Part shown: positions 4,252 through 61,425 of the stretch, in pieces
Numbering within the stretch: position 1 is the stretch's first letter
How the letters are laid out: each line of letters starts with the position of its first letter
Origin: Sandaracinus amylolyticus
GTDB taxonomy: Bacteria; Myxococcota_A; Polyangia; Polyangiales; Sandaracinaceae
Length of the DNA: 64,000 nucleotides
Assembly (NCBI RefSeq): GCF_021631985.1
Contig: NZ_CP070225.1
Span: 3,286,001 to 3,350,000 of the forward strand
Direction of reading: 5' to 3'
Program-made: the position numbers and the translations under genes
Notes under the pieces: generated by a model
What the model saw: the letters and a program-made list of their open reading frames with translations, nothing else
What the model was told of the DNA's origin: nothing
The model's database searches: none

Positions 4252-4680
4252 ATGAGCGAGAAGACGAGCTCGGGGACCGACCGCGAGATCACACAGCGCA
4301 CGATGCGTGTGGGGATGCTCGCCCTGATCGCGGCACTCTGCGTCGCCTCGATCGCGGACTGGATCCACCACGATCTGTCGACGATGTTCGTGCTGGTCAT
4401 CGCGCTGATCGGCATCGGCACGCGCGGCAGCGTGCTCGACTCCGTCTTCGTGGTCGCCGTGGAGGCGGCCGCCGTCGTGATGCTCGCGGTCGCGACCTTC
4501 ACGTCGTCGGACGCGTTCCTGCACGCGGCGTCGTCGGCGGTCGCGGTGATCGCGATCGGCAAGATCGCACTGCTGCAGATCGTCGCGCCCGCGCCGACCG
4601 ACGGAACGAAGAAGGAGCGACCCGTCTCCGCATCGGCTCCGGAGACCGCGGCCGCTCCTCCCGGTCGCGACGCTGCGTGA
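4252..4680 (+). CDS. small integral membrane protein of unknown function
   Basis: A 142-residue protein starting at an ATG preceded by GGAGGGGG. Three hydrophobic segments are visible: about residues 20-40 (MLALIAALCVASIADW), 44-57 (TMFVLVIALIGIG) and 62-82 (LDSVFVVAVEAAAVVML), with a further weakly hydrophobic stretch near 90-110 and a Thr/Ala/Pro-rich cytoplasmic tail. It is transcribed divergently from the polysaccharide co-polymerase and converges on the peroxiredoxin gene. I do not recognise the family. Membrane location is read from the sequence; no role is proposed. Confidence 0.65.
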   Translation: MSEKTSSGTDREITQRTMRVGMLALIAALCVASIADWIHHDLSTMFVLVIALIGIGTRGSVLDSVFVVAVEAAAVVMLAVATFTSSDAFLHAASSAVAVIAIGKIALLQIVAPAPTDGTKKERPVSASAPETAAAPPGRDAA

Positions 4681-54765: not shown

Positions 54766-55581
54766 CTATTCGGTCGGCGCGCCGCCGCGGATCCACGCCG
54801 CGACGCGGGCGATCTCCTCGGCGCTCAGCGCGTGCGCGGCGCCCGCGTCGTCCGGCGGCGGCATGCGCTCGCCGACGATGTGGGGATCGCCCAGCAGCTT
54901 GTAGACGAGATAGCTGTCCTCGGGCCGCCCCGCGTCGCCGAACACCTCGATGCGCGTCATCCCCGCGAGGCCCGTCACGATCCCGCCGGCGCGCGGTCGC
55001 TCGCCGGTCTGTCGCGACGCCACGCGGATCGCGGTCGCGCGCACGCCCTCGGCGCTCGCGAGATCGAGCCCCAGCACCGGCGCGTCGCCGCCGTGACAGT
55101 CGCCACACGCCTGCGCGAGCAGCGGGCCGATCTCGCTCCACGGCGGCACGTCGTCGCTCGGCGCGGTCTCCGCACGCCCGGTGCGGAACACCACGACCTC
55201 GCGCGCCCCGACGATCCCGTCGAGATCGCGCACGCCCTCGACGCGCAGCTCCCAGCGCGCATCGGGATCGAGCGCGCCCTGCGGCTCGATGCGGATCCCG
55301 GGCAAGGTCGGATCGGCGCGCACCGCGATCGGCGCGACACGCGCGCCCGAGACCACCTGCACCGTCGCGGGCGACACGCTGCTCGGCGCGAGCGGCCGAT
55401 CGAGCACGACCTCCATCCGCGCGAGCCGATCGACGTCGTCGGCGCCGGGCGCGGGAACGGTCGCGATCACGAGAGGCGCCGAGCCGATCGGTGCGGTCTC
55501 GTTCGGCACGTCGCAGGCGGTGCCGAGGACGAGCGCCGCGACCGAGACCAAGAGCGCGGCTCGGCGCGTCAGGTCCGTCAG
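54766..55581 (-). CDS. lipoprotein with an Ig-like domain and a heme c motif
   Basis: About 271 residues if the CTG at 55581, which overlaps the preceding stop, is the start; a TTG at 55551 is an alternative. The lipobox is VLGTAC, with a basic n-region (LTRR) visible only in the longer form. Residues about 30-125 look like a bacterial Ig-like domain (APGADDVDRLARMEVVLDRP). A cytochrome-like C-terminal region has CGDCH and a candidate Met ligand in GERMPPPDD. This is a common layout of outer-surface monoheme lipoproteins. The function is unknown. It adjoins a small helical protein gene on the same strand. Confidence 0.65.
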   Translation of the reverse strand: MTDLTRRAALLVSVAALVLGTACDVPNETAPIGSAPLVIATVPAPGADDVDRLARMEVVLDRPLAPSSVSPATVQVVSGARVAPIAVRADPTLPGIRIEPQGALDPDARWELRVEGVRDLDGIVGAREVVVFRTGRAETAPSDDVPPWSEIGPLLAQACGDCHGGDAPVLGLDLASAEGVRATAIRVASRQTGERPRAGGIVTGLAGMTRIEVFGDAGRPEDSYLVYKLLGDPHIVGERMPPPDDAGAAHALSAEEIARVAAWIRGGAPTE

Positions 55582-55832
55582 CTCTCGCTGTACATCGAGA
55601 GCTGCTGCCGGACGACGTCCTCGCTGACGCCTTCCGGGATGTACTCCTTCAGGCAGTCGGCGAGGGTGACGAGCATGTCGTCGACGCCCTTGTCCTCGAT
55701 CAGCTTGGCCAGAAGCGCGCGCGCTTCGCGGGAGTCGTCCTCGCGCAGGAATTGCCGCACCTGCTCGATCGTGATCTCGCCCGAGAAGTCGATCTGAGCG
55801 TTCTGTAGAAGAAAGCGAGCGAGTTCCTTCAC
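55578..55832 (-). CDS. small helical protein of unknown function
   Basis: 84 residues from the GTG at 55832, chosen because GGGGAGGA sits at the right distance upstream. The sequence is a set of amphipathic helices (KELARFLLQNAQIDF, TIEQVRQFLREDDSREARAL, VDDMLVTLADCLKEYI). There is no signal or transmembrane segment. The stop overlaps the probable start of the heme lipoprotein gene. Small conserved-looking proteins of this kind occur in myxobacteria, but no function is known to me. Confidence 0.65.
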   Translation of the reverse strand: MKELARFLLQNAQIDFSGEITIEQVRQFLREDDSREARALLAKLIEDKGVDDMLVTLADCLKEYIPEGVSEDVVRQQLSMYSES

Positions 55833-56048: not shown

Positions 56049-57566
56049 CTGGACACCCCGCGCATCCGCGTCCTCGTGACCGCCTTCGCCGCCGTGCCCG
56101 GCTCGAGCCCGCATGGCGCGGCGCTCCTCGCCATCGCGGCAGCGGTGCGCGGCGACGTCGATCTGGTGACCGTCAAGACCGAGTCGCTCTCGCACGTCGA
56201 GCGCATCGGCGACGCGCGCATGTTCCGCGTGCCGGTCGGCGAAGCGGGCGCCCTCGAGCAGCGCGTGATGTTCGATCGCGCGGTGGCGCGGCAGCTCGAG
56301 GCCGAGCCCTACGACGTCGTGCACGTGCGCGGTCCGTTCGAGGGCGCGATCGCCGCCGACCGCAAGGACGCGTTCGGGTTCCAGCTCGTCTACGAGATGG
56401 CGACCTTCCCCGACGAGGCGCTGGGCGCCGGGGTCGAGCGGCGATGGAGCGAGGCCCACGCGAAGAGCATCGAGCACGCGGATCTCGTGCTGGTGCCGAC
56501 CGAGGCCGCGCGCCGCGCGGTGCTCGAGAGCGTGCCCTCGGACCGCGTGATCGTGCTGCCGCCGGGCATCGACGTGGGCAGCTTCGACTGGCGTCCCTCG
56601 TCGCACGAGTCGGTGCCGCGGCTGCTCTATCTCGGATCGTTCACCGCGGATCGCGATCTCGCGACGATGCTGCGCGCGCTGCGTCGCGTGGTGCAGACGC
56701 GCCCGGTGCGCGCGCTGATCGCGGGCGAGACCGATCGTCACCGCCGCGAGCAGATGCGCGCGATGGTCGACGCGTTCGAGCTCGGCGGGGTCGTCGAGGT
56801 GCGAGGCGAGCCGCCGCCGCGGACGCTGCCGAAGATCATCGCGGGCGCCGATCTCTGCCTCGCTCCCGCGAGCGAAGCGCCGCGCTTCCAGTCGCTCGGC
56901 GATCTCCCCCAGCCGCTGCTCGAGTACCTCGCCTGCCATCGCCCGGTGATCGCGGCGGGCGTGCCCGGCGTGAGCGACGCGCTGCGCGACGAACAAGAAG
57001 GTCTGCTCTATCCGCCCGGCGACGAGAGCGCGCTCGCGGATGCGATCCTGGAGATGCTGCGCGACGAGTCGCTGCGCGCGCGCACGACCGAGTCGGGCTA
57101 TCGCCGGGTGCGCGAGCTCTTCTCGAGCGGCGCGCGACGGCGGCGCATCGCCGAGATCTACGAGCGCCTCGCGCCGGGCTCGCAGAACGCCGATCCCTGG
57201 GACGAGAGCTTCGAGGACGGCGAGACCGGCGCGCTCCAGGTCGCGTCGATCTCGTCGCTCGTCACGCCCCAGACCGGCGATCGCGACGAGCCCGTGCACG
57301 AGTTGTTTGCTGATTCGCCGACTGATCGCGGCGAAGAGATCGGCGCCGACAGCGAGGAGCCGACGACCCACAACGCGCTGGTGATCGCGGACAGCCAGAG
57401 CGCGATCGAGCTCGACACGAACGAAGTGCTCGTCGTGAAGACCCAGCCCGGCGAAGAGATCACGCGCGACATCCCCGCGCACCTCGACACCGATCCCGGC
57501 CTCCTGCCGATCGACGCGATCGCGCCCGAGGCAACGCGGCGCACGACCGACACCGACCCCGGCTGA
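56049..57566 (+). CDS. glycosyltransferase, GT4-like (GT-B fold)
   Basis: 505 residues if the start is the CTG at 56049, which lies 5 bases after CAGGAGG and restores the first strand PRIRVLVTAFAAVPGSSPHG; the next GTG at 56076 would cut the Rossmann strand. The C-terminal GT-B half has VPRLLYLGSFTADRDLATML, ALIAGETDRHRRE, and the donor-site region LLEYLACHRPVIAAGVPGVS, ending with GLLYPPGDESALADAIL. About 120 C-terminal residues are acidic, low complexity and unlike the family. The stop is 1 base from the convergent multiheme cytochrome gene. Sugar donor unknown. Confidence 0.85.
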   Translation: MDTPRIRVLVTAFAAVPGSSPHGAALLAIAAAVRGDVDLVTVKTESLSHVERIGDARMFRVPVGEAGALEQRVMFDRAVARQLEAEPYDVVHVRGPFEGAIAADRKDAFGFQLVYEMATFPDEALGAGVERRWSEAHAKSIEHADLVLVPTEAARRAVLESVPSDRVIVLPPGIDVGSFDWRPSSHESVPRLLYLGSFTADRDLATMLRALRRVVQTRPVRALIAGETDRHRREQMRAMVDAFELGGVVEVRGEPPPRTLPKIIAGADLCLAPASEAPRFQSLGDLPQPLLEYLACHRPVIAAGVPGVSDALRDEQEGLLYPPGDESALADAILEMLRDESLRARTTESGYRRVRELFSSGARRRRIAEIYERLAPGSQNADPWDESFEDGETGALQVASISSLVTPQTGDRDEPVHELFADSPTDRGEEIGADSEEPTTHNALVIADSQSAIELDTNEVLVVKTQPGEEITRDIPAHLDTDPGLLPIDAIAPEATRRTTDTDPG

Positions 57567-57567
57567 C

Positions 57568-58806
57568 TCATCGACAGCGCGCGCGCAGCTCTTCCACGTC
57601 GCCGTGGCACGTGATGCACGCGCGCGCGTTGGTCTCCAGCGCGCCGCGACACGACATCGCGAAGCCCGGCGGATGCGGGCTCACGCCCGCGCCGATCCCC
57701 CGCGCGCCGTGGCACTGCACGCAGTCCTCCTCGGCGTGACAGCTCGCGCAGCTCTGCATCGAGCGCACAGCCTCGATCGCGTGCATGTTCGGCCCGCGCA
57801 CCCACACCGCGGTCGGCGGATGCCAGCGATCGCGCGTGCGCACGTCGGGCGCCGCGATCGGCGCGATGCCGAGGCGCCCGTGACACTCCGCGCAGAACTG
57901 CGAGATCGTGTGGCAGCTCGTGCAGCGCCCGCCGCTCGTGCCGAGCTCGCCGTCGCGCCGCGCGTAGACCGGATGCACGGTGAGGAAGTCGCTCGGGTGC
58001 ACGCGCCGCGGTCGCACCCGTCCGTCGTGGCAGTCGGTGCAGTCGCTCTCGGTGTGGCACTCGGCGCAGAGCGGGCCCTGATCGGCCGCGACCCAGCGAT
58101 GCCGCACCAGCCACTCGTGATCGTGGCGCATGCCCGCCATCCAGCGCGGCGGGTTCATCCAGCCCTCGGGCCAGCGCGCGTGCAGCTGTCCCGAAGGGTT
58201 CGCGACGTGACAGCCCTCGCACGCGAGCGGACGAGGCGCGGCCGGCACGTCACCGAGCCCGCTCGGCGCATGACAGCGGAAGCAGTCGCGCATCGTCGGC
58301 AGATGCGCCCGCGTCGCGAGGCGCGCGTCGGGGACTCCGGCGTGACAGTCGAGACAGGTCTGTCCCGCCTGCACGTGCGCGCGGTGCGAGAACCGCAGGC
58401 GCGCCGCGGGGACGTCGGAGACCGGCGCGATCGGCGCGCCCGCATCGCTCGGCGGAGGGACGAACCCCATGTGACAGGTGCCGCACGTCTCGATGGTCGG
58501 CGTCGCGCGATCGATCTCGCGCGCATGGCACGGCAGGCAGGTGCGCTCCGCGGGGATCAGGCGATCGGCGGACGACTCGCTGGTCGGTGCGCCGTCGTGA
58601 CAGCGCGCGCACTCGAGCTCGCGATGCGCGGGGAGCGAGTGGTCCATCCGCAGCGCGATGCGCTGCGGCGGATAGATGATCGTCGAGCGCCCGAGGTCGC
58701 GCGGCCGCGCGCTCGCGCTGCGCTGTCCGACGCTCGCCCCGCTCGTCAGCCCGAGCACGAACGCGAGCGCGATCCCGATCGCGACGACGTACTGCACCGC
58801 TCTCAT
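57568..58806 (-). CDS. exported multiheme c-type cytochrome with 13 CxxCH motifs
   Basis: 412 residues from the ATG at 58806. A signal or anchor (VVAIGIALAFVLGLTSGA) is followed by 13 heme-binding motifs, read in order as CARCH, CLPCH, CGTCH, CLDCH, CFRCH, CEGCH, CAECH, CTDCH, CTSCH, CAECH, CASCH, CVQCH and CITCH. Additional His residues (HSLPAH, FSHRAH) could be distal ligands. This is a cytochrome c3/NrfH-like type of multiheme electron carrier. The ATG overlaps the stop of an outer-membrane barrel gene by 4 bases (ATGA), so both are made from one mRNA. A periplasmic wire across or next to that barrel is the obvious inference. Confidence 0.9.
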   Translation of the reverse strand: MRAVQYVVAIGIALAFVLGLTSGASVGQRSASARPRDLGRSTIIYPPQRIALRMDHSLPAHRELECARCHDGAPTSESSADRLIPAERTCLPCHAREIDRATPTIETCGTCHMGFVPPPSDAGAPIAPVSDVPAARLRFSHRAHVQAGQTCLDCHAGVPDARLATRAHLPTMRDCFRCHAPSGLGDVPAAPRPLACEGCHVANPSGQLHARWPEGWMNPPRWMAGMRHDHEWLVRHRWVAADQGPLCAECHTESDCTDCHDGRVRPRRVHPSDFLTVHPVYARRDGELGTSGGRCTSCHTISQFCAECHGRLGIAPIAAPDVRTRDRWHPPTAVWVRGPNMHAIEAVRSMQSCASCHAEEDCVQCHGARGIGAGVSPHPPGFAMSCRGALETNARACITCHGDVEELRARCR

Positions 58807-60215
58807 CGCCACGTCTCCACGCGCAGCCACGCGATCAATCGGAACCGATTGCCCACCACCCTGCTCGCCGCGTGCTGCAGCTCGACGAGGATCGACGCCT
58901 GCTCGGTGAGATCGAAGATCGCGTCGATCGACTCGCTCACCACCGTCCCGTAGAGGTCCTGACGCAGCGGATCGTCGAAGTGCCACACACTCACGTGCAG
59001 GCCCAGCGCGATCTCGGGGATGAGCCGCCGCCGCGCGTCGATCGACACGCCCGCGACCGGACCGAGCGAGCCGCTCCACGCGAAGCCGGAGAGCCCCGCG
59101 TCGATGCGCTCGATCCGCGCGCGCGCCCATCCCTCGACGCCCGCGTCGTAGTCCTCGCCCCACGGCGCGCCGAGATCGGCGTGACGACCGCGCAGCGCCC
59201 CGCCGAGCTCGACGTCGTCGCTGAGGCGCACGCTCCCGCCGAGCCGCGCCTCGTCGATCGGCGCGGTCTGGAACCACGCCCAGATCGTGCCGGGATCGAA
59301 GCGCGGCACGTGTCGCTCGATCGAGGCCCGCGCGCTCCAGATCCCCTCGCGCAATTCGATCGCACCGAGCGCGTCGATCACCGTGATGTCGAGCAGATCG
59401 AGCACGCCGATCGCTTCCATGCGCAAGAGCGGGATCGGCTGCGACGTCGCGCTCAGCGAGAGGCGCGACAGCACCGTTCCGTCGTCCTCCCACGCGTGCC
59501 GCACGCCCGCGCCGAGCTGCAGCCACTCGCCCGGCCCGCCGCGCACCCGCGCGCCCACCACCCAGGTGTCGATGCCGGGATCGGTCCACGGCGCGACCGT
59601 CGCGTCGACGTCGCTGCGATCGACGCGCATCTCGCCCTGCGGCTCGAACGCCGGCGTCCCGAGCAGGCTCGTGCCTCGCACCATCAAGCCCGCGAACGCC
59701 TCCGCGGAGATCCACGGCCAGGGCGCGATCCGCGCGCTCACTCCGTCGAACCGCACGAACCCGATCGGATCGACCTCGAGCTGCCGCCCGACCCGCGCCG
59801 CGATCCCGAGAGGCAAGCCGTCGATCGCGACCCAGAGCATCGGCAGATCGATCAGCGATGGCGACGTGAGCGGCTGCCATCCGCCCGTCATCTCGCGATC
59901 GTACGCGCGCACGCAGAGCTCGCCGCCGACCAGGCAGTCCTCGCCGAAGTCGTGGTAGAGCCGCAGCCGCACGCTCGCCGAGAGGCGAATCTGGCGTCCA
60001 TCGGGCTCGGGCGCGCCGAGCGGCTGCACGAGCCGCAGCCCGAGGTTGGACGTGAAGCGGCGCCGCGCGAGGAACGTCGTCGTGCCCGGCGCGCGCACCT
60101 CGTAGACCTGGAAGCTCGCGTCGCTGTCGAGCTCCACGTCGAGCGCGCGCGCGGATGGGACGGCGAGCGCGAGCATCGCCGCCGCGAGCGCGACGGCTCC
60201 GATCCGCCGCGTCAC
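58803..60215 (-). CDS. large outer-membrane beta-barrel protein paired with a multiheme cytochrome
   Basis: 470 residues from the GTG at 60215 (ALAAAMLALAVPSARALD signal). The chain consists of long alternating strands separated by short turns (RRFTSNLGLRLVQPLGAP, LSASVRLRLYHDFGEDC, WLQLGAGVRHAWEDDG, RFRLIAWLRVETW), consistent with about 18-22 strands. It has no plug or Omp85 motif. GTGA overlap with the YbjN-like gene upstream and ATGA overlap with the multiheme cytochrome downstream indicate translational coupling. By analogy with MtrB-type porins, it may sheath the cytochrome; sequence similarity to MtrB was not recognised. Confidence 0.75.
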   Translation of the reverse strand: MTRRIGAVALAAAMLALAVPSARALDVELDSDASFQVYEVRAPGTTTFLARRRFTSNLGLRLVQPLGAPEPDGRQIRLSASVRLRLYHDFGEDCLVGGELCVRAYDREMTGGWQPLTSPSLIDLPMLWVAIDGLPLGIAARVGRQLEVDPIGFVRFDGVSARIAPWPWISAEAFAGLMVRGTSLLGTPAFEPQGEMRVDRSDVDATVAPWTDPGIDTWVVGARVRGGPGEWLQLGAGVRHAWEDDGTVLSRLSLSATSQPIPLLRMEAIGVLDLLDITVIDALGAIELREGIWSARASIERHVPRFDPGTIWAWFQTAPIDEARLGGSVRLSDDVELGGALRGRHADLGAPWGEDYDAGVEGWARARIERIDAGLSGFAWSGSLGPVAGVSIDARRRLIPEIALGLHVSVWHFDDPLRQDLYGTVVSESIDAIFDLTEQASILVELQHAASRVVGNRFRLIAWLRVETWR

Positions 60216-60679
60216 TCGCTGCGCTGATCGCTCGAGCGTTGCGTGCCGAAGCGCGTCGCGAGCGCGTCGTCCCAGGAGTCCGCGAGGCGGCCGATGCTGC
60301 GGATCGTGGTGTCGACCTCCGAGGCATCGAGATCGCGCAGCGCGCGCTCGGCGACCACGACCACGTCGGCGCCGAGCAGCCCGAACGCCGCGCCGACGAG
60401 CTCGCGCGCGTTGAGCTCGAGCACGTGCTGGAAGAGCGCGGTGCGCTGCGGCTCCGCCCCGGGGATCTTCACGACCGGCGCCGCGACACGGAGCGACCCC
60501 TCGCGTCCCGCCGCGGGCTCGTGCACCGCGACGACGATGCGCGCGCTGCCACGCCGGAGCACGTACGACGCGGCGCTCGCGTCGCCTGTCAGCTTCGCGG
60601 TCGCTGCGTCGATCCCGAGCCGCCCGATCGCCTCTTCCACCAGCGTGATCGCTCGCTTCGTGTCGTCGTCGGCCGCCAT
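60212..60679 (-). CDS. YbjN/CesT-like domain protein
   Basis: 155 residues from the ATG at 60679 (a GTG lies two codons earlier). The fold pattern matches YbjN and type III chaperone-like domains: an opening helix (TKRAITLVEEAIGRLG), strands ARIVVAVHEPA and GSLRVAAPVVKIPG, then ALFQHVLELNARELVGAAFG and VVVVAERALRDLD, DTTIRSIGRLAD. Proteins of this fold bind unfolded or partner proteins. It heads the barrel-cytochrome operon, so a dedicated chaperone or assembly role is possible. A promoter lies just upstream. Confidence 0.75.
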   Translation of the reverse strand: MAADDDTKRAITLVEEAIGRLGIDAATAKLTGDASAASYVLRRGSARIVVAVHEPAAGREGSLRVAAPVVKIPGAEPQRTALFQHVLELNARELVGAAFGLLGADVVVVAERALRDLDASEVDTTIRSIGRLADSWDDALATRFGTQRSSDQRSE

Positions 60680-60699
60680 CGTCACCGCTCCGCGACGGG

Positions 60700-60728
60700 A
60701 TTCGACGATGCGCGGCGATCGAAGTCAA
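60700..60728 (-). promoter_or_regulatory. candidate sigma-70 promoter of the YbjN-barrel-cytochrome operon
   Basis: On the minus strand TTGACT (60728-60723) and TCGAAT (60705-60700) are exactly 17 bases apart, 20 bases upstream of the start codon. Confidence 0.45.
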
Positions 60729-60774
60729 GGAGCGCTCGACGGCGTCGATCGCGGATGACAGAGAGAACGTCGCC

Positions 60775-61425
60775 TTGAGCCCCGAGTCGATCGTCGAGCG
60801 CGTGGTGGCGCGACTGCCGGAAGCCGAGATCCAGCGCGCGCAGGCCGAGTTCCACGCACGCACGGGGCCCTTCGCGCCGGGCGAGCCGTTCTACGAGGAG
60901 CGGGTGCGCGCGTTCCTCGACTGGCTGGTGATCGAGCGTCACGAGGGCGCCGCGATGCGCGCGTTCCTCCCCTCGCTCGCGCCTGCCGAGCAGCCGCTCG
61001 CGCGCGCGATGCTCGCGTCGATGCGCAGCCTCTTCCGCGTGACCGACCAGCGCGGCGACGATGGACCGATCGTCGATTGCCTGCTCTACGGCGCGCGCTT
61101 CGTGGCGCGGGGCGACGAGCTGCCGGGCTCGCGATTGACCGCGGGCGACGTGCTCGACGGACGCGCGATCGGGCTCGGTGGTCGGGTGATGCTCGCGCCC
61201 GGTCCGGTCTTCCATCCGCGCGAGGCGCACGAGGCGCTCGCCGCGCTGCTCGAGACCGCGCGCGCCGCGGGGCGCTGCGACGGGACGCTGCTCGATCCGC
61301 TGCTGCGCATGCGGATGCGGCTCGACCGCTTCGAGAGCATCCGCGCCAAGCACATCTACCGCTTCGACGCGCTCGACCGCACCGAGATCCTGACCGCGCC
61401 CTGGGCGGCCGACGCGTCCGGCTGA
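60775..61425 (+). CDS. hypothetical cytoplasmic protein
   Basis: 216 residues from a TTG; no ATG or GTG start is available in frame. It is a compact helical protein, including IVERVVARLPEAEIQRAQAE, FLDWLVIERHEGAAMRAFL, a central ARFVARGDELPGSRLTAGDV and a basic region RMRMRLDRFESIRAKHIYRF. It has no signal peptide. The family is not recognised. It is divergent from the multiheme operon. Confidence 0.6.
   Translation: MSPESIVERVVARLPEAEIQRAQAEFHARTGPFAPGEPFYEERVRAFLDWLVIERHEGAAMRAFLPSLAPAEQPLARAMLASMRSLFRVTDQRGDDGPIVDCLLYGARFVARGDELPGSRLTAGDVLDGRAIGLGGRVMLAPGPVFHPREAHEALAALLETARAAGRCDGTLLDPLLRMRMRLDRFESIRAKHIYRFDALDRTEILTAPWAADASG

Follow-up and report, generated by a model that had tools for sequence, protein, structure and literature searches.

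A beta-barrel and 13-heme cytochrome gene pair as a probable two-component electron conduit in Sandaracinus amylolyticus and other Myxococcota

Most known electron conduits of the outer membrane come from bacteria that respire metals or oxidize iron. Does Sandaracinus amylolyticus, a member of the Myxococcota, encode one as well? We asked this of a small operon in a 64,000-nucleotide stretch (G000:C1:3286001-3350000, called the window below) of its 10.96 Mb, two-contig genome. An initial annotation had described the operon as three coupled genes, for a YbjN-like protein, an outer-membrane barrel, and a cytochrome with 13 CxxCH motifs. On re-reading the sequence, we found the three genes, the 13 motifs, and both 4-base overlaps, namely GTGA between YbjN and barrel and ATGA between barrel and cytochrome, where the cytochrome ATG overlaps the barrel stop. 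The promoter candidate that the genes were said to share is unconfirmed, as a sigma-70-type scan of positions 57400-61000, which covers that promoter type only, gave no promoter-like site. The core unit of the operon is the barrel and cytochrome pair, and this pair is probably a two-component porin-cytochrome electron conduit through the outer membrane, belonging to a family of the Myxococcota.

Distribution and common descent of the pair

We searched 183 genomes of the order (Polyangiales) with thresholds of E ≤ 1e-3 for the barrel and E ≤ 1e-8 for the cytochrome. The barrel query matched 132 genomes and the cytochrome query 147. Fifteen genomes whose best cytochrome match lay at about 1e-8 to 1e-17 were set aside as paralogues and counted as lacking an orthologue. 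With these set aside, 128 genomes have both genes, 4 the barrel only, 4 the cytochrome only, and 47 neither. Profile searches of a 377-genome sample of the phylum (barrel E ≤ 1e-3, cytochrome E ≤ 1e-20) matched 138 and 164 genomes, respectively. Among the matches listed (of 150 barrel rows listed, 146 were used, leaving out second segments of genes already counted), 129 phylum genomes have both genes, 17 the cytochrome only, and 3 the barrel only. Within the 129, the two genes are adjacent in 120, barrel first and on the same strand; in the remaining 9 they lie on different contigs. For two of the 17 listed as cytochrome only, G247 (locus L177) and G308 (locus L182), a barrel does adjoin the cytochrome. 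The cytochrome rarely occurs without the barrel, a point that the initial annotation had named as a check on its conduit proposal: it does so in 4 of the 132 order genomes that match the cytochrome strongly and in 17 of the 146 listed phylum genomes, at least two of which have the adjoining barrel.

For closer comparison, 40 order loci were chosen from genomes that have both genes, so the adjacency in 41 of 41 loci, counting the window, is not independent evidence. The stop of the barrel and the start of the cytochrome form an open, in-frame 4-base NTGA overlap in 53 of 56 order loci (37 ATG, 13 GTG, and 3 CTG), and an open 4-base stop/start overlap was seen in 30 of the 36 phylum loci taken into the test, out of 39. 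Any base before TGA was allowed as a start (ATG, GTG, TTG, or CTG); the weight of this result lies in the frame that the loci share and in the surplus of ATG and GTG.

The five order families with at least four members (f1, f3, f4, f7, and f11, labels that we assigned from the search tables) are each monophyletic in both the barrel tree (52 proteins) and the cytochrome tree (54 proteins), and distances in the two trees correlate at 0.92. Therefore, the pair descends together within the order. Of the alignments used in this work, A1 comprises the window and 51 of 52 listed references (without L065; the start of L082 was set by hand), A2 comprises the window and 53 of 55 (without L063 and L065), and A3 is a hand-picked set of 15 members.

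The barrel is predicted to be wide and 22-stranded

The window barrel has no Pfam or NCBIfam match above cut-off, the generic OMP_b-brl model matches only 2 of 52 barrel members, and no sequence relative of the family was found in the PDB. The MtrB_PioB family (PF11854) gave no match for the window barrel at E values up to 1, for the 52 members at E values up to 0.01, or in the genome of S. amylolyticus. We modeled the barrel with AlphaFold2 from a 52-row alignment and obtained a 22-stranded barrel with a predicted local distance difference test (pLDDT) score of 85.1 and a predicted template modeling (pTM) score of 0.76. Only residues 19-22, 95-117, and 183-195 have pLDDT values below 50. All 22 predicted strands show the alternation of lipophilic and polar residues, and the model has no separate plug domain.

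Structural alignment of the model with VIA-align gave Z scores of 17.8 for FimD, 17.3 for PapC, 16.8 for OccK3, and 15.5 for the receptor PirA. MtrB of the Mtr complex (PDB 6r2q) aligned with a Z score of 14.4 over 384 residues at 5.7 Å. FimD, PapC, PirA, and MtrB are all wide barrels that hold proteins, and the matches span nearly the whole chain. The width of the lumen had been proposed as a check on the conduit idea, and the predicted barrel is indeed wide. A standard geometric estimate puts the backbone radius at 19-21 Å for 22 strands versus 23-25 Å for 26. In MtrAB, the first four of the 26 MtrB strands do not touch MtrA (PMC7198977); because these strands make no contact, a 22-stranded barrel might in principle enclose a cytochrome of this kind. 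Strong conservation marks the loop between strands 13 and 14, where P304 is invariant and F306, D307, I311, and F315 each reach 90% or more. A similar stretch, P-x-F followed by S-I-F-N-L-F, is legible in four diverged barrels.

The cytochrome combines a c7-like part with a conserved seven-heme module

The window cytochrome matches the Pfam family Cytochrome_C7 at 54.5 bits (cut-off 24.8). Its 13 CxxCH motifs recur in 39 of 41 order loci (12 motifs in the remaining pair of loci) and in 31 of 39 phylum loci, with 12 in four and 7 in four. Since the heme number is kept across the order and phylum loci, the count of 13 is more than chance. Across the 54 aligned members, ten histidines outside CxxCH motifs and Met172 are invariant, and one further histidine column is conserved at 81%.

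The protein appears to be built of two parts. The N-terminal six-heme part gave profile matches to 6lod_A (E = 5e-18) and to the cytochrome c family protein 3ov0_A (E = 1.3e-21). The QrcA model matches 42 of the 54 members; the window protein is far below its cut-off (21.2 versus 180 bits). TIGR03508, used as the model for decaheme MtrA/DmsE-type cytochromes, matches 17 of 54 (best E = 2e-8), with no match for the window protein at 1e-3. We also saw a profile match of the cytochrome to 6r2q_A, at E = 2e-4 over about 60 positions. In the C-terminal part, seven CxxCH motifs and seven further histidines are invariant in all 15 of 15 divergent phylum members, and therefore all seven C-terminal hemes can, in our reading of the alignment, be bis-histidine ligated. 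Most matches of this module are to Cytochrome_C7-type Pfam models (13 of the 15 members at E ≤ 0.01), and its matches in the PDB are weak, the best being hydroxylamine oxidoreductase at E = 5.6e-4.

Four loci of family f28 (L168, L169, L171, and L182) encode a cytochrome reduced to the seven-heme module, with the barrel kept alongside; L170, of the same family, has 13 hemes. The retention of this module beside the barrel suggests that it is the part of the cytochrome that works with the barrel. By eye, the seven-heme cytochromes of L169 and L182 have a lipobox-like site. Separately, we considered recoding at stops inside some distant cytochromes and saw no sign of it: the frames inspected are complete 12- or 13-heme proteins in which the stop is terminal.

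A further multiheme gene precedes the pair in some distant relatives

In five distant loci (L173-L177, families f26 and f30), the barrel and the 13-heme gene are preceded on the same strand by an open reading frame (ORF) with 26-34 hemes. The L173 barrel fell below the threshold applied to these loci and was matched at 4496-4660 in the phylum barrel search. A lipobox pattern matched the 26-34-heme ORFs of L173, L175, L176, and L177 and missed that of L174, though MAGC is visible there. The two giant cytochromes that were scanned, those of L175 and L176, have both Cytochrome_C7 and MtrC/MtrF-domain matches over the cut-offs. At L172, an 8-heme ORF is cut by the contig end. Additionally, three order genomes have paralogous clusters (L179-L181) in which a 12-heme relative is accompanied by a neighboring 12-heme ORF, with a lipobox in L179 and L180, and by ORFs of 27-34 hemes; these three genomes also hold the main pair elsewhere.

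L173-L177 are apparently three-component conduits. Their layout resembles that of the three-part Mtr/Pcc conduits and, judged by this analogy, is the best indirect evidence for a conduit. The third, multiheme gene upstream in distant relatives therefore strengthens the conduit reading for the window pair. The same conduit might run inward, with Fe(II), reduced humics, or mediators as electron donors, as has been proposed for the two-gene mtr-type clusters of iron oxidizers that have no outer cytochrome. The operon encodes no extracellular cytochrome, and mtrC is reported to be absent from some of the mtr clusters, in particular from those that serve Fe(II) oxidation (PMC4245776), both of which would suit inward flow. 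However, the lipobox-bearing multiheme cytochromes upstream in distant relatives are arranged as in reductive conduits, and we consider inward flow possible but unlikely.

Comparison with known conduits

The pair agrees with the broad description of porin-cytochrome (Pcc) systems, in which a porin-like gene adjoins a multiheme cytochrome gene: its 22 predicted strands and 13 hemes fall within the published ranges of 18-22 predicted strands and 5-14 hemes for the periplasmic cytochrome (PMC4245776). Its parts are not those of MtrAB, MtoAB, or PioAB. These systems likewise combine a barrel with a multiheme cytochrome, which in the window pair would lie inside, and exist in MtrC-less versions. 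However, their barrels belong to PF11854 and have 26 strands, whereas the window barrel has no PF11854 match and 22 predicted strands, and MtrA/DmsE-type cytochromes follow a decaheme plan, unlike the 13-heme, c7-like plus seven-heme plan seen here. None of the three MtrAB hallmarks (MtrB_PioB family, 26 strands, decaheme MtrA-type cytochrome) was found, which bears out the earlier remark that neither component looked like MtrB or MtrA.

The logic of porin and cytochrome is common to Geobacter-type Pcc and Oet systems (OmbB-OmaB-OmcB and OetABI), which we set beside the pair by layout. The distant members described above add an upstream multiheme cytochrome; the window has no third gene. Most, though not all, published Pcc clusters include a gene for an outer-membrane multiheme cytochrome, and none is present in the window cluster. 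The window cytochrome resembles ActA, QrcA, and cytochrome c7 by profile in its N-terminal six-heme part and differs from them in the C-terminal seven-heme module, for which PDB matches are weak.

The closest layout is that of two-gene pcc clusters in Anaeromyxobacter. Shi et al. (2014) report clusters in Anaeromyxobacter and Candidatus Kuenenia that are limited to a porin plus a cytochrome with 12 or 14 hemes (PMC4245776). Like the window pair, the Anaeromyxobacter clusters have a barrel, one multiheme cytochrome, no outer-membrane cytochrome, and a myxobacterial host. Their cytochromes have 12 or 14 hemes in 338-344 amino acids (PMC4245776), compared with 13 hemes in 412 amino acids here. 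Our best reading is that the window pair is nearest in layout to these clusters. The suggestion that the operon might be a new type of conduit therefore stands as far as the differences from MtrAB go, and falls short in that a two-gene layout of this kind is already known. In the parts of the open-access literature that were searched, no description of this pair in Polyangiales was found. Secreted multiheme proteins have been noted in some Myxococcota metagenome-assembled genomes (PMC11495043).

Proposed mechanism and evidence against it

We propose that the barrel would act as an insulating sheath, with the seven-heme module as the insulated wire inside its lumen. The six-heme, c7/ActA-like part at the N terminus would reach into the periplasm, make contact there, and exchange electrons with periplasmic carriers or with a quinol-oxidizing complex, for example the product of alternative-complex-III-like genes about 32-38 kb away. 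At the cell surface, electrons would leave or enter directly or via soluble mediators, since the operon has no gene for an extracellular cytochrome. YbjN may assist; it is not beside the pair in most loci examined. Of the conduit idea first put forward for this operon, the wide barrel, the rarity of the cytochrome without the barrel, and the upstream multiheme gene in relatives all speak in its favor, and the role given to YbjN and the notion of a wholly new layout have been given up.

Several observations weigh against a conduit. What links the barrel to the cytochrome is gene order, co-occurrence, and geometry. When the weak cytochrome matches are counted in, the 183 order genomes divide into 129 with both genes, 3 with the barrel only, 18 with the cytochrome only, and 33 with neither. 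The AlphaFold2 model of the cytochrome is weak (pLDDT 73.7), with residues 288-374 mostly below 50, so the shape of that stretch cannot be judged. There is no other ORF with at least two CxxCH motifs in the window, and the giant cytochrome of the relatives was not found in the S. amylolyticus genome in a search that had no positive control. We know of no extracellular electron acceptor or donor for aerobic Sandaracinus. Three further results are adverse or neutral: the cytochrome fold search returned ActA-type proteins only (Z 4.8-5.4, residues 32-201), a narrow lipobox pattern matched 3 of 54 proteins of the main cytochrome family, two of them doubtful, and the cytochrome had no match in 72,556 plasmid records. 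Furthermore, the best Foldseek and VIA-align rows for the barrel are ushers and porins, not MtrB, and a fold as such shows no function. Lumen-facing positions show no greater conservation overall than lipid-facing positions (entropy 2.00 versus 2.16 bits, p = 0.50).

These last two results, together with the resemblance of the cytochrome's N-terminal part to c7/ActA proteins, would also fit two separate functions, in which the barrel would serve as a normal channel for solutes or export, the cytochrome would separately carry or store electrons in the periplasm, and nothing but co-expression would join them. However, gene order and overlap are kept over the phylum, the barrel model is 22-stranded with no separate plug domain, and the seven-heme module is the part of the cytochrome kept in all aligned loci. 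We regard separate functions as quite unlikely and prefer the porin-cytochrome conduit.

YbjN and other neighbors of the pair

The coordinates of the operon and its parts are given in Table 1.

Table 1. Genes of the operon and parts of their products, with positions in the window
Feature	Position	Strand	Basis
YbjN / TY-Chap1 family protein, 155 amino acids; facultative neighbor	60212..60679	-	Pfam
Outer-membrane beta-barrel, 470 amino acids including signal peptide, GTG start, 22 predicted strands, no separate plug domain in the model	58803..60215	-	AlphaFold2
13-heme c-type cytochrome, 412 amino acids, Sec-type signal peptide (by eye), ATG start	57568..58806	-	ORF, CxxCH count, Pfam
Cytochrome N-terminal six-heme part, c7 / ActA-like; limits approximate; putative periplasmic end	58195..58695	-	Profile and fold searches
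Cytochrome C-terminal seven-heme module, 7 CxxCH and 7 invariant further histidines; putatively in the lumen	57571..58194	-	Alignment
Conserved barrel loop between strands 13 and 14, residues 303-319; membrane side putative	59259..59309	-	Alignment and AlphaFold2

The YbjN-like identity of the first gene is confirmed, with scores of 35.4 bits for PF10722 (cut-off 22) and 37.9 bits for TY-Chap1 (cut-off 27). No more than 13 of the 41 order loci and 2 of the 39 phylum loci show a clear YbjN match, and we no longer take YbjN to be a core part; it is an optional neighbor, dispensable for the pair. A further profile round gave only partial YbjN matches (about positions 65-136 of 146) in L079, L082, L089, L092, L102, and L104. 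Those of L079, L089, L092, L102, and L104 were taken as antisense frames, where the opposite strand has a kinase-like gene immediately upstream of the barrel, and that of L082, which shares one stop-free frame with the barrel, was set aside.

The operon had also been proposed as a module for the assembly of heme proteins, and it could be read as helping to assemble heme proteins or barrels, YbjN acting as a chaperone. YbjN does belong to the YbjN/TY-Chap1 family and is coupled by 4 bases in the window and in its closest relative. Its adjacency is unlikely to be chance, because the genome has only five YbjN matches, four of them over the cut-off. The small share of loci with a clear YbjN match goes against this explanation, however, and no heme-assembly gene was recognized in the neighborhood, which was not searched family by family. 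We consider an assembly module very improbable.

Several other genes lie near the pair. A small conserved protein (VKELARFLLQ...) at 55578-55829 (-) has no Pfam family over the cut-off and has relatives in 28 of 41 loci (cluster 1); in the window, a glycosyltransferase gene on the opposite strand sits between it and the cytochrome. After it, at 54766-55551 (-), is a likely lipoprotein (LGTAC by eye) with one CxxCH, no Pfam match, and relatives in five loci (cluster 20), which could be a surface partner. A divergent ORF at 60775-61425 (+) has no Pfam match, shares its intergenic region with the operon, and is kept in 4 of 41 loci (cluster 35). Locus L194 (G000:C1:3379000-3392000) holds, at a distance of about 32-38 kb from the operon, a pentaheme ActA-like gene with iron-sulfur and NrfD-like neighbors, a gene set that may be read as alternative complex III.

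Implications for the Myxococcota

S. amylolyticus has been described as aerobic (PMC5010890). A broader proposal, for and against which we see the case as evenly balanced, is that the pair belongs to an ancient conduit family of the Myxococcota that has a barrel family and a seven-heme lumen module of its own and has been passed on vertically, at least inside the order. In relatives of aerobic, predatory bacteria, electrons would then cross the outer membrane for something other than classical metal respiration. If so, this might be redox contact with prey or minerals, with redox-active secondary metabolites, or with enzymes at the surface. The pair is a small one, and lineages that cut the cytochrome to seven hemes would offer a minimal wire for structural work and engineering. 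If many Myxococcota, among them relatives of aerobic soil myxobacteria, keep a conduit of this kind, that would bring redox exchange at the cell surface into a very different way of life.

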